From: Pseudosulfitobacter pseudonitzschiae
Lineage (GTDB): Bacteria > Pseudomonadota > Alphaproteobacteria > Rhodobacterales > Rhodobacteraceae
Length of the DNA stretch: 64,000 bases
Reading direction: 5' to 3'
NCBI RefSeq assembly: GCF_900129395.1
Contig: NZ_FQVP01000001.1
Location: forward strand, 434,001 to 498,000
Shown here: positions 31,161 through 34,284 of the stretch, in pieces
Numbering within the stretch: position 1 is the stretch's first letter
How the letters are laid out: every line of letters starts with the position of its first letter
Position numbers and translations under genes: made by a program
Notes under the pieces: generated by a model
What the model was told of the DNA's origin: nothing
The model's database searches: none
Seen by the model: only the letters and a program-made list of their open reading frames with translations

Positions 31161-33188
31161 ATGAAATCTATTCTTAAACGAACGACAGCTATGGTGTTGT
31201 GCACTGCCCTTATGGTGCCGGTGCCAAGCTATGCACAGGTCGCGGCCCAAGGCGAAACCCAGGGTGACGCGCAGCTGAAGCTGGACGAAAACGGCATCGC
31301 GATCGAAGCGGACGCTTCTGCGGATGCAGAGGCTTCGGCCGATGCGGCGGACGAGGTTCAGGCCACGGACGACGAAGCCACAAAAGCCGAGAAGAAAGCT
31401 CGCAAGGCCGAACGCAAAGCTGCCAAAGCTGCTGAAGCCGCCGAGGCCGCAACTGCGGAAGCCGAGGCCAAGCTGAAGGCCGAAGCCGACGCGGATGCCG
31501 CTGATGCGGATGCGGCGGTTGCCGAAGCGGCGGCTGCCGAAGCCGAGGCGAAGGCCAAGGAAGAACGCGCCGCACGCAAGGAACAGCAGCGCGCTGAAAA
31601 GGCGGCACAGGCCGATGCTGACGCCCAGCAAGCGGATGCTGATGCAGCGGCCAAAGCCGAGGCAGATGCAAACGCCAAGGCTGCGATTGAAGCGCAAGCA
31701 GATGCAGACGCCAAGGCCACTGCAGAAACGCAAGCCGACACCGGCGCAACGCCCGAGCCTGTGACCGAAACCCAAGGCACTGCCGCAACAGATGCAGATC
31801 CTGATGAGGTGGCCAAGGCAGAGCGCGCAGCCCGCAAGGCAGAGCAACGCGCTGCGAAGGAAGCCGAGGCCAAAGCTGCGGCCGAAGCAGCAACAGCTGA
31901 AACCCAAGCTGAAACCGAAAGCGATACCGCGACGGACACGACTGCTGACACCACGGCTGATACAGCGACAGGCACGAATGCCGACGCTGATCTGGACGCC
32001 GAGGCCATAGCCAAGGCGAAGGAAGAGCGCGCTGCCCGCAAGCAGGCCCAGCGTGAGGACAAAGCTGCTGAAGAAGAGCAGGCGGCGATGACCGAAGAGG
32101 AAAAGGCCAAAGAGGCGAAAATCGAAGAACGCCGCGCGGCCCGTCAGGAAGAGCGTCAGGCTGCCCGTAAGGAAGCCGCAGCCGCTCAGGAAGAAGCCGA
32201 AGCCGAGAACGTCGTCGAGGAAGTCGTGACCGAAGAAAATTCGCGTTCGAGTGACGAAGACTTTGACACCAAAGCCAACGCATCTGCTGCCATCGAAGAA
32301 GACAGCGGCGGTCTGAGCAAGTTTGAAAAAGCGTTGCTGGTCGGTCTTGGTGCCGTGGTTGTCGGCAAAGTGCTGAGCAACGGTGACGAAGTCGTGTCAA
32401 ACTCGGGCGACCGTGTGGTCGTGCGTCGTGACGGCGACCTGCGCGTTCTGAAGAGCGACAACGAATTGCTGCGCCAGCCGGGTTCGGACGTGCGCACCGA
32501 GCAGTTCAACGACGGTTCGACCCGCACCACGGTCACCCGTCAGGATGGCAGCCAGGTGGTCACGATCGCCTCTGCTGACGGTACGGTTGTGGAACGTTTC
32601 CTGCGTCGCACCGATGGCTCGGAGATCACATTGATCGACGATACCCGCGATGTAGAGCCCGTGTCCATGTCGTTCCTGGAGACACGCACCGACCGCACCA
32701 CCCCCGCGGCGAGTGCAGATGATGTGGCTGCGTTGCGTTCGGCCTTGTCCGCGCAACAGGGCAACACATCGGGTCGGACGTTCTCGCTGAGCCAGGTGCG
32801 CGAAATCCGTGCCGTGCGCGAGTTGGTGCCAACGATCGAGCTGAACAACGTTACCTTTGACACCGGGTCGGCAGCTATTCGTGCCTCGCAGGCCGAAGAG
32901 TTGGCAGAAGTGGGTGGGGCCATCGTGGACGCGATTGAGCAAGACCCAAGTGCGATTTTCCTGATTGAAGGTCACACAGATGCGGTGGGCGACGATGCCT
33001 ATAACCTTGCGCTGTCTGACCGTCGTGCGGAAACCGTGGCGCTGGCGCTGACCGAGTATTTCGACGTTCCGCCGGAAAACCTGATCACGCAAGGCTATGG
33101 TGAAAGCGCGCTGAAGATCCGCACCCAGGCCGCCGAACGGGCCAACCGTCGTGCCGCCGTGCGCAACGTGACTTCGCTCATGCGTTAA
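31161..33188 (+). CDS. OmpA-family protein with long Ala/Glu/Lys-rich region
   Basis: This 675-residue envelope protein has a signal peptide (about 1-25, ending SYA) and a very long low-complexity region rich in Ala, Glu, Lys, Asp and Thr (about 30-370). That region contains repeated KAERAARKAEQRA-like heptads and probably forms a TolA-like helical rod. A short hydrophobic patch (ALLVGLGAVVVGKVL) at about 395 follows, then a C-terminal OmpA peptidoglycan-binding domain with VTFDTGSAAI, EGHTDAVGDDAYNLALSDRRAETVA and GYGESAL. It probably links the outer membrane to peptidoglycan. It is isolated between two terminators. Confidence 0.9.
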   Translation: MKSILKRTTAMVLCTALMVPVPSYAQVAAQGETQGDAQLKLDENGIAIEADASADAEASADAADEVQATDDEATKAEKKARKAERKAAKAAEAAEAATAEAEAKLKAEADADAADADAAVAEAAAAEAEAKAKEERAARKEQQRAEKAAQADADAQQADADAAAKAEADANAKAAIEAQADADAKATAETQADTGATPEPVTETQGTAATDADPDEVAKAERAARKAEQRAAKEAEAKAAAEAATAETQAETESDTATDTTADTTADTATGTNADADLDAEAIAKAKEERAARKQAQREDKAAEEEQAAMTEEEKAKEAKIEERRAARQEERQAARKEAAAAQEEAEAENVVEEVVTEENSRSSDEDFDTKANASAAIEEDSGGLSKFEKALLVGLGAVVVGKVLSNGDEVVSNSGDRVVVRRDGDLRVLKSDNELLRQPGSDVRTEQFNDGSTRTTVTRQDGSQVVTIASADGTVVERFLRRTDGSEITLIDDTRDVEPVSMSFLETRTDRTTPAASADDVAALRSALSAQQGNTSGRTFSLSQVREIRAVRELVPTIELNNVTFDTGSAAIRASQAEELAEVGGAIVDAIEQDPSAIFLIEGHTDAVGDDAYNLALSDRRAETVALALTEYFDVPPENLITQGYGESALKIRTQAAERANRRAAVRNVTSLMR

Positions 33189-33208: not shown

Positions 33209-33239
33209 AAAAGGGCGCTGCTTCGTGCAGCGCCCTTTT
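33209..33239. terminator. Strong bidirectional terminator between ompA-like gene and the infC array
   Basis: A 13-bp perfect stem (AAAAGGGCGCTGC, 33209-33221; GCAGCGCCCTTTT, 33227-33239) with a 5-nt loop. It has A and T runs on both sides, so it can end both the OmpA transcript and minus-strand transcripts from infC. Confidence 0.9.
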
Positions 33240-33258: not shown

Positions 33259-33281
33259 TCAGCCTTTGGAGGCGACCGGCC
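33259..33281 (-). pseudogene. Second, synonymously different infC 3' tail remnant
   Basis: Read on the minus strand this encodes PVASKG-stop (CCG GTC GCC TCC AAA GGC TGA). The live infC ends PVASKG with CCG GTC GCA TCC AAG GGT TAA. Six residues are identical while three codons and the stop differ, and the remnant is joined to the tandem array at a GGCCG sequence. It looks like the original or another allele's gene end left behind by recombination. Confidence 0.65.
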
Positions 33282-33729
33282 TTAACCCTTGGATACGACC
33301 GGCCCGTTCAGCATAACCATCTGGCGGCCTTCTCAGAGTCCGGCATGGCCGGGCGCGTCAGAAGGCCGCTTTTGTTGGAAAGGCTGTTCGGCCTTAACCC
33401 TTGGATGCGACCGGCCCGTTCAGCATAACCATCTGGCGGCCTTCTCAGAGTCCGGCATGGCCGGGCGCGTCAGAAGGCCGCTTTTGTTGGAAAGGCTGTT
33501 CGGCCTTAACCCTTGGATACGACCGGCCCGATCAGCATAACCATCTGGCGGCCTTCTCAGAGTCCGGCATGGCCGGGCGCGTCAGAAGGCCGCTTTTGTT
33601 GGAAAGGCTGTTCGGCCTTAACCCTTGGATGCGACCGGCCCGATCAGCATGACCATCTGGCGGCCTTCTCAAAGTCCGGCATGGCCGGGCGCGTCAGAAG
33701 GCCGCTTTTGTTGGAGAGGCTGTTCGGCC
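33282..33729 (-). repeat. Four 112-bp tandem repeats made from the infC 3' end
   Basis: Units start at 33282, 33394, 33506 and 33618; the real infC stop is at 33730. Each has 51 bp equal to the last 16 codons and stop of infC, then a 61-bp spacer that includes an inverted repeat. Unit 4, next to infC, is closest to the gene. Unit endings vary ([28 protein letters not shown] from far to near). On the plus strand every unit has the hairpin GCGGCCTTCT...AGAAGGCCGC followed by TTTTGTT. This explains the main gene-free stretch of the window (33189-33729, 541 bp). Confidence 0.93.
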
Positions 33730-34284
33730 TTAACCCTTGGATGCGACCGGCCCGATCAGCATGACCATCTGGCGGCCTTCCATCTTGGGAAAGTTCTCGA
33801 TCTTGCCCACGTCCTTGGTGTCTTCGGCGACACGTTCCAGCAACTCGCGGCCCAGGTTCTGGTGTGCCATTTCGCGGCCACGAAAGCGCAGGGTGATCTT
33901 CACCTTGTCGCCGTTTTCCAGGAATTTGAACACGTTGCGCATCTTGACCTGATAGTCATTGGTATCCGTGTTGGGACGGAACTTGACCTCTTTGATCTCG
34001 ATGATCTTTTGTTTCTTGCGGGCTTCGCTCTCGCGTTTCTGCTGTTCATATTTGAACTTGCCGAAATCCATGATCTTGCACACGGGCGGCACAGCATTTG
34101 GCGAAATCTCGACCAGGTCCAGCCCTGCCTCTTCGGCCATCGCCATCGCGCGGGCCGGTGTTACGACACCGACGTTCTCGCCCTCGGCGCCGATCAGGCG
34201 GATTTCATTGGAACGGATTTTCTCATTGATGCGCGGGCCGGTTTCACGTTGCGGCGGCGCGTTATGTGGTCTGCGAGCGATGAT
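33730..34284 (-). CDS. infC: Translation initiation factor IF-3 (non-AUG start)
   Basis: IF-3 binds the 30S subunit and checks start-codon fidelity. The frame extends upstream of the first ATG (34146) through [21 protein letters not shown], the conserved IF-3 N-terminus, to tandem ATC codons at 34284 and 34281 with AAAGGA 5-8 nt before them. An AUC/AUU start is the known mark of infC, allowing IF-3 to limit its own synthesis. Length is 184 residues. It contains the core [15 protein letters not shown] and GREMAH. The 3' end has been tandemly copied downstream. rpmI and rplT do not follow. Confidence 0.95.

Follow-up and report, generated by a model that had tools for sequence, protein, structure and literature searches.

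The window analysed here, a stretch of 64,000 nucleotides from Pseudosulfitobacter pseudonitzschiae, carries on its minus strand the live infC gene, encoding IF3 (33730–34284). The reading frame extends to 33730, and the upstream frame together with a Shine-Dalgarno sequence suggests a start at an ATC codon (34284–34282) with AAAGGA ahead of it, upstream of the first ATG (34146). Non-standard infC starts are known from E. coli. Directly behind the gene lies a tandem array, delimited by Tandem Repeats Finder to 33277–33780 (period 112, 4.5 copies, 98% matches). Read on the minus strand, the end of live infC is followed by four 61-bp spacers alternating with four further 51-bp tails, each corresponding to the last 16 codons and stop of infC, and finally by a 23-bp remnant. 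The live tail, T0 (33730–33780), ends in TAA and begins with GAAGGCCGCC, the break point that is common, within 2 nt, to the carriers found. Spacer 1 (33669–33729) differs at two positions from spacers 2 (33557–33617), 3 (33445–33505), and 4 (33333–33393), which are identical, so that the gene-proximal spacer is the odd one. The tail copies T1 (33618–33668), T2 (33506–33556), T3 (33394–33444), and T4 (33282–33332) show 0, 2, 2, and 3 differences from the live tail, respectively, and these variants form a mosaic across the copies. The array is truncated after T4, which is fused to a remnant of another tail (33259–33281; ..PVASKG, TGA), recognized as that of the displaced original by comparison with other genomes of the genus (G001, G002, and G004, see below). 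Because the downstream tails carry amino-acid changes (I to N and A to V), a coding function for them is unlikely.

A 46-bp palindrome, GCGGCCTTCT-core-AGAAGGCCGC, was delineated from folds and from matches of the R2 model described below, with derived coordinates of 33660–33705; its right arm falls within T1, and it recurs at 33548–33593, 33436–33481, and 33324–33369. On the strand opposite infC, a TTTT run comes after the palindrome in this genome (G000) and in that of a sister species (G004). A role of the array as an antisense terminator is unproven, and a hairpin terminator, read from the sequence by eye, is already present outside the array at 33210–33239, in the interval between infC and a convergent gene; a similar hairpin was seen by eye at the same place in G001–G005. 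None of the 8 loci searched matched a known Rfam RNA at gathering score, the best match touching an array being S15-Halobacteria (26.9 bits versus a gathering score of 49, in locus L003), and a known RNA was accordingly discarded as the identity of the array. The convergent gene (31161–33188) is Ala/Glu-rich and repetitive in its first half and looks OmpA-like at its end by eye, and positions 1–774 of the window hold 255-bp repeats (77–82% matches, Tandem Repeats Finder).

History of the array within the genus

The six genomes of the genus, i.e., the window's own and five others (G001–G005), were searched and their infC-region sequences compared. In G001 and G002, a single infC tail ending in TGA is directly followed by the flank with its terminator, without any spacer. 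G005 likewise has one TGA tail and a similar flank, with a short, ambiguous similarity behind the stop (score 23 versus a shuffle maximum of 21); at another locus of this genome (L122:1499–1704; L labels denote fetched loci), a different hairpin unit is repeated in tandem with a 170-bp period. Three spacers and four tails are present in G004, the far tail being intact, ending in TGA and bordering on plain flank. In G003, the gene-side tail ends in TGA; behind it come a degenerate unit that has suffered an inner deletion and the end of a second tail with TGA. In both G000 and G004, the gene-side tail is of the type proper to the genus (GPVASKG) and has TAA as its stop. The direction of displacement is thus downstream, the TGA tail lying at the far end. 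These sequences show this far tail to be the displaced original infC end, reduced to the remnant in G000. A spacer and a tail were thus inserted first and multiplied afterwards, since G001 and G002 show a single tail without a spacer and G004 keeps the displaced TGA tail.

These comparisons bear on several points of a preliminary description of the locus. The array of 112-bp units derived from the infC end is borne out by both the exact anatomy and Tandem Repeats Finder, as is the drift away from the gene, from MLIGPVA to MLNGPVV. Its extent of four units also stands, except that 33259–33281 had been overlooked as the remnant of another tail. An assembly error is an unlikely source, because the copies differ from one another and a separate genome, G004, shows at this position, within a 3.6-Mb contig, an array that has diverged from that of G000. 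Nothing supports the unit being an ordinary repeat dispersed over the genome: the whole array stretch has one match in its own genome, in which no further full copy was found. A search for the left half of the palindrome, tolerating 3 mismatches at most, found it 4 times in the G000 array, 3 times in the G004 array, and once elsewhere in G000, the last being a partial match with 3 mismatches in 22. The proposed search of related genomes found the 112-base unit at full length only in G000 among 394 genus representatives, the other 51 matching genomes aligning partially, mostly over the first bases of the infC tail. The dual role of GAAGGCCGC, with which the tail starts and which also serves as an arm of the palindrome, is confirmed as well: in the non-independent genomes G000 and G004, the left arm repeats the tail start in inverted orientation over 9 nt (0/2000 shuffles). 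Joining at this short repeat remains a plausible origin, but purely local slippage is unsupported; as infC of G001 and G002 lacks the 61-bp spacer and the original tail lies at the far end of the array, other sequence was brought in.

Recurrence at the same break point and two classes of hairpins

Recurrence of the duplication was assessed with a 26-base infC-tail pattern, allowing up to 3 mismatches, in 394 genomes, one per genus; it matched in 335 of them, which are therefore assessable, and diverged copies would escape it. Genomes with at least two matches were picked by eye and ten were re-examined, five of which proved to be true duplications: G054, with three tails 151 bp apart, and G084, G185, G192, and G237, with tails spaced by 113, 137, 103, and 138 bp, respectively. 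Second matches in G016, G029, G116, G189, G391, G249, G304, and G386 lie elsewhere in the genome and have 3 mismatches. The duplication is hence present in 6 of the 394 genera, G000 included. Among 80 named infC loci, four have a tail duplication within 500 bp (L202, L178, L186, and L211); L178 and L186 come from two Yoonia species with alike insertions, and the infC of L202 is the same as that of G185. Carriers amount to eight lineages (the window's own genus, G054, G084, G185, G192, G237, Yoonia, and L211), not necessarily to eight separate events. In all of them, the second tail begins at the same codon, (G)GAAG, within 2 nt (both G000 and G004 for the window's own genus). At infC, the duplicated block always starts from the hairpin; its end coincides with the stop codon or lies close to it, except in G054 and G237, where the block extends into the downstream flank. 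In G237, a degenerate stretch resembling a hairpin comes after the last tail, and all differences between the two tails are synonymous, which does not speak for decay. The other genome of the G054 genus gave no match to the tail pattern at all (one of the two genomes matched) and is hence uninformative.

The hairpins found at infC fall into two classes, with no model match between them. Class I, found at infC in G054, G084, G185, G237, L178, L186, and L211, consists of CTCTCG-stem-CTGCCG and, behind it, a second hairpin that reaches to the start of the tail, and its copies at infC can be aligned over their whole length. A CTCTCG..CTGCC hairpin lies within 400 bp downstream of infC in 7 of 142 distinct loci, some of which were fetched because of hairpin or duplication features, and all seven have the tail duplication. 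The structure of 12 class I copies, dispersed ones included, comprises a 9-pair stem, an internal loop with sides TCTC (TCAC in one copy) and TGCC, and an outer helix of 3 pairs; its covariation reaches 0.472 versus 0.152 when shuffled (0/500) and at most 0.153 for slid versions, the structure having been chosen on the same sequences. At E ≤ 0.01 and with scoring limited to 17 candidates per genome, the corresponding model, R1, has matches in 176 of the 394 genera. Class I is therefore a structured dispersed repeat of the REP/REPIN kind, with a conserved unpaired motif, a variable stem, and dispersed copies, some of which form REPIN-like inverted pairs. Among the six genomes of the window's genus, its plain pattern clearly exceeds the control only in G000 (10 versus 2) and G004 (25 versus 6). 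The class I frame had 14 viral matches, in which no clear stem could be discerned by eye; they were taken as chance, and a viral source was not retained.

Class I hairpins also lie inside or beside transposase frames of several families (L102, L231, L236, L241, L246, L253, and L254), with three copies in one broken transposase gene at L102:1000–2560 and a frame of 330 aa open through the hairpin in L246 (1191–2180). Of the 30 loci L228–L257, 13 were picked by eye and tested; in 10 of these 13, transposase-type domains were matched by frames lying at the hairpin or running through it. Tandem class I hairpins are found directly behind tRNA-Val without a copied tRNA end (L258:780–1030, 87 bp; L239:1440–1674, 89 bp), and class I-like hairpins occur near tRNA-Ile/tRNA-Ala genes (L240:1240–1540 and L249). 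At 34 of 51 hairpin places, 6 of the 51 being at infC, there is no flanking direct repeat above shuffle level, and duplication is thus not a general result of hairpin insertion.

Class II, to which the hairpin of the window belongs, was found at infC in G000, G004, and G192 and consists of a left arm, CTG(A/T)CGCG, a variable stem, CTGAG, and a right arm inside the tail. The window's hairpin is not a member of the R1 family, the best R1 match touching the array having 9.7 bits (E 0.5). The class II model, R2, built from three genomes and also applied with 17 candidates scored per genome, matched in 7 of 394 genomes, so that REP/REPIN-like dispersal was not found for this class. These matches include the seeds G000 and G192 at infC, then G361, G110, G010, G320, and G112, the last three at E 0.006–0.009. 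The G361 match (E 5.5e-6) is better than that in G110 (E 7e-4), but lies within a long open frame and looks like chance.

The G110 match, in another genus, lies behind a tRNA-Thr(GGT) gene (L275:1377–1451; whole feature, 1377–1567). The last 31 bases of this tRNA are repeated 82 bases further on (30/31 equal, score 57 versus 18 in shuffles), with the class II hairpin between the gene and its 3'-end copy. Its left arm, TCTCGAC, is the inverse of the start of the copy, GTCGAGA (7 nt; 5/2000 shuffles), these letters being unlike those at infC, and no T run follows the hairpin. A single match at E 7e-4 among 394 genomes is weak evidence alone; the duplication of the tRNA 3' end is separate evidence. 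This is the one instance in which class II with the same anatomy was seen away from infC. In G192, the arm at infC is 5 nt long (408/2000 shuffles). Pairing between spacer and break point was better than in most shuffles for G084 (14/500), G054 (21/500), and G185 (34/500), and not clearly above shuffles for G192 (154/500), G237 (135/500), L178 (66/500), L186 (132/500), and L211 (177/500).

Origin of the duplicated gene ends

At a probability of roughly 0.5, we favour a reading in which REP-like hairpins were joined near the gene 3' end through template switching or illegitimate recombination, which duplicated that end, and unequal recombination then multiplied the unit. A short REP-like hairpin would join infC at a fixed point, 16 codons ahead of the stop, and the same event would duplicate the stretch from that point to the stop, so that the gene would keep a full 3' end and the original tail would be displaced downstream along with the old flank. 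Synthesis would pass through the tail and slightly beyond, jump into the hairpin, and return to infC where the hairpin arm matches it (GAAGGCCGC). Once two tails were present, unequal recombination between the repeats could add units, and may also remove them; the downstream tails need not code, and probably have no function. Such a template switch would explain why the start is fixed, the end variable and the tails host-type and, G237 excepted, why no hairpin lies behind the last tail, and blocks running into the flank in G054 and G237 are as expected of a copying event. The IF3 gene is essential, and selection for its integrity could be why only full-tail events are seen. Against this reading, no intermediate of a template switch was found, no donor copy was identified for the window's array, because R1 fails to match its hairpin, pairing of spacer with break point is not clearly above shuffles in G192, G237, L178, L186, and L211, and most hairpin places lack a flanking direct repeat above shuffle level. 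Template switching or illegitimate recombination nonetheless seems the most likely mechanism, common descent being the alternative. A broader proposal, which we advance tentatively, is that a new class of hairpins, mobile or copied, captures the 3' ends of conserved genes, with a fixed inner joining point, the gene end copied in front and one arm built as an inverted copy of the target; in that case infC would be a hot spot that was struck again and again across the family, tRNA-Thr would be a further target, and tandem arrays would arise as a by-product.

Common descent would imply one ancient insertion, inherited vertically and lost many times through tail-tail recombination, a loss that would restore a clean gene. 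The full-length alignment of class I hairpins and the alike insertions of the two Yoonia species agree with such a history. However, there are two hairpin classes at the same break point, and on an infC tree of 142 distinct sequences, 10 with the duplication, 9 changes are needed, at least 6 of them forced by well-supported branches. Carriers are no more clustered than in shuffles (120 of 500 as low), and their grouping as one clade is unsupported; the bootstrap of the tree had not settled. This tree is compatible with repeated gain as well as with an old gain followed by loss; we regard a single ancient insertion as unlikely. It is highly improbable that a foreign infC 3' end and terminator were gained by homologous recombination within infC and closed by illegitimate joining at the terminator arm, GAAGGCCGC. 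Such an uptake would account for the start of the G004 spacer (TAAGGCAAACC..AAGCGGCCT) aligning, from the stop codon onwards, with the natural 3' region of infC in G102 (score 28 versus a shuffled maximum of 24). The match is weak, however: another locus reached 29, though elsewhere, and for the spacer of G000 the score with G102 was 23, under its shuffled maximum of 24. The gene-side tails of G000 and G004 are, moreover, of the GPVASKG type of their own genus.

The 3' ends of tRNA genes serve as attachment sites of integrative elements, at which the gene end is duplicated and restored. By analogy, the infC and tRNA-Thr 3' ends could be targets of a recombinase, with the tails as attL/attR-like scars and the spacer as a leftover of the element. 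Restoration of the gene by the incoming tail with displacement of the original, the fixed break point, and a tRNA 3' end as the second case all resemble such sites, but we doubt that this is the origin: no integrase gene and no insert of more than about 150 bp per unit was seen between the tails, which are 103–151 bp apart. Moreover, the class I spacers are conserved hairpins and not random leftovers, the second pattern matches elsewhere in genomes had 3 mismatches, the tail pattern has no exact match in 2.9 million viral contigs, and a search of 72,556 plasmid records and 50,697 phage records (E 0.01) gave no match to the unit.

Relation to known repeats and meaning

Rickettsia palindromic elements are palindromes that lie inside protein genes. 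The class I copy whose hairpin is read through by an open frame (L246) is reminiscent of them, but the protein genes hit by class I are mainly transposase genes, and infC is duplicated, not extended. Tandem REPIN clusters of Pseudomonas fluorescens SBW25 consist of short hairpins in near-identical tandem units that include flanking sequence (PMC3116915), and share with the infC array both the short hairpins and the tandem units with flank. Unlike in those clusters, the flank here is the coding end of a conserved gene and the break point recurs across genera. The RAYT (Y1) transposase domain, PF01797, is present in one of the six genomes of the genus (G002, with no clear class I stem beside the gene) and absent from G000 and G004, and RAYT-driven mobility within the window's own genome thus finds no support. 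According to PMC3733652, where the name of the Rickettsia palindromic elements also occurs, CGTC-tagged REPs are mostly alpha-proteobacterial and lack a dedicated transposase; they and the GTAG-tagged REPs are dispersed palindromes like class I, whose consensus, however, has flanks CTCTCG and CTGCCG with TCTC/TGCC sides, and neither a CGTC nor a GTAG tag.

Among open-licence papers, searches brought up no described array at infC, in line with the preliminary description, and none of the titles listed deals with these hairpins in this family; in PMC9239051, infC serves only as a phylogenetic marker. The array is not an isolated case: other genera show the same break point combined with different hairpins, and tRNA-Thr shows the same anatomy.

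These observations touch on two open questions, the spread of palindromes without a transposase and the birth of tandem repeats. A nearly nucleotide-exact break point within an essential gene of translation, in several lineages and with different hairpins, together with the tRNA parallel, constitutes a natural experiment that offers empty sites, displaced tails, and array sizes for direct comparison. Repeats of gene ends, which are usually interpreted as attachment scars left by lost islands, may thus have another origin, and the carriers hint at a recurring way by which hairpins duplicate gene ends.
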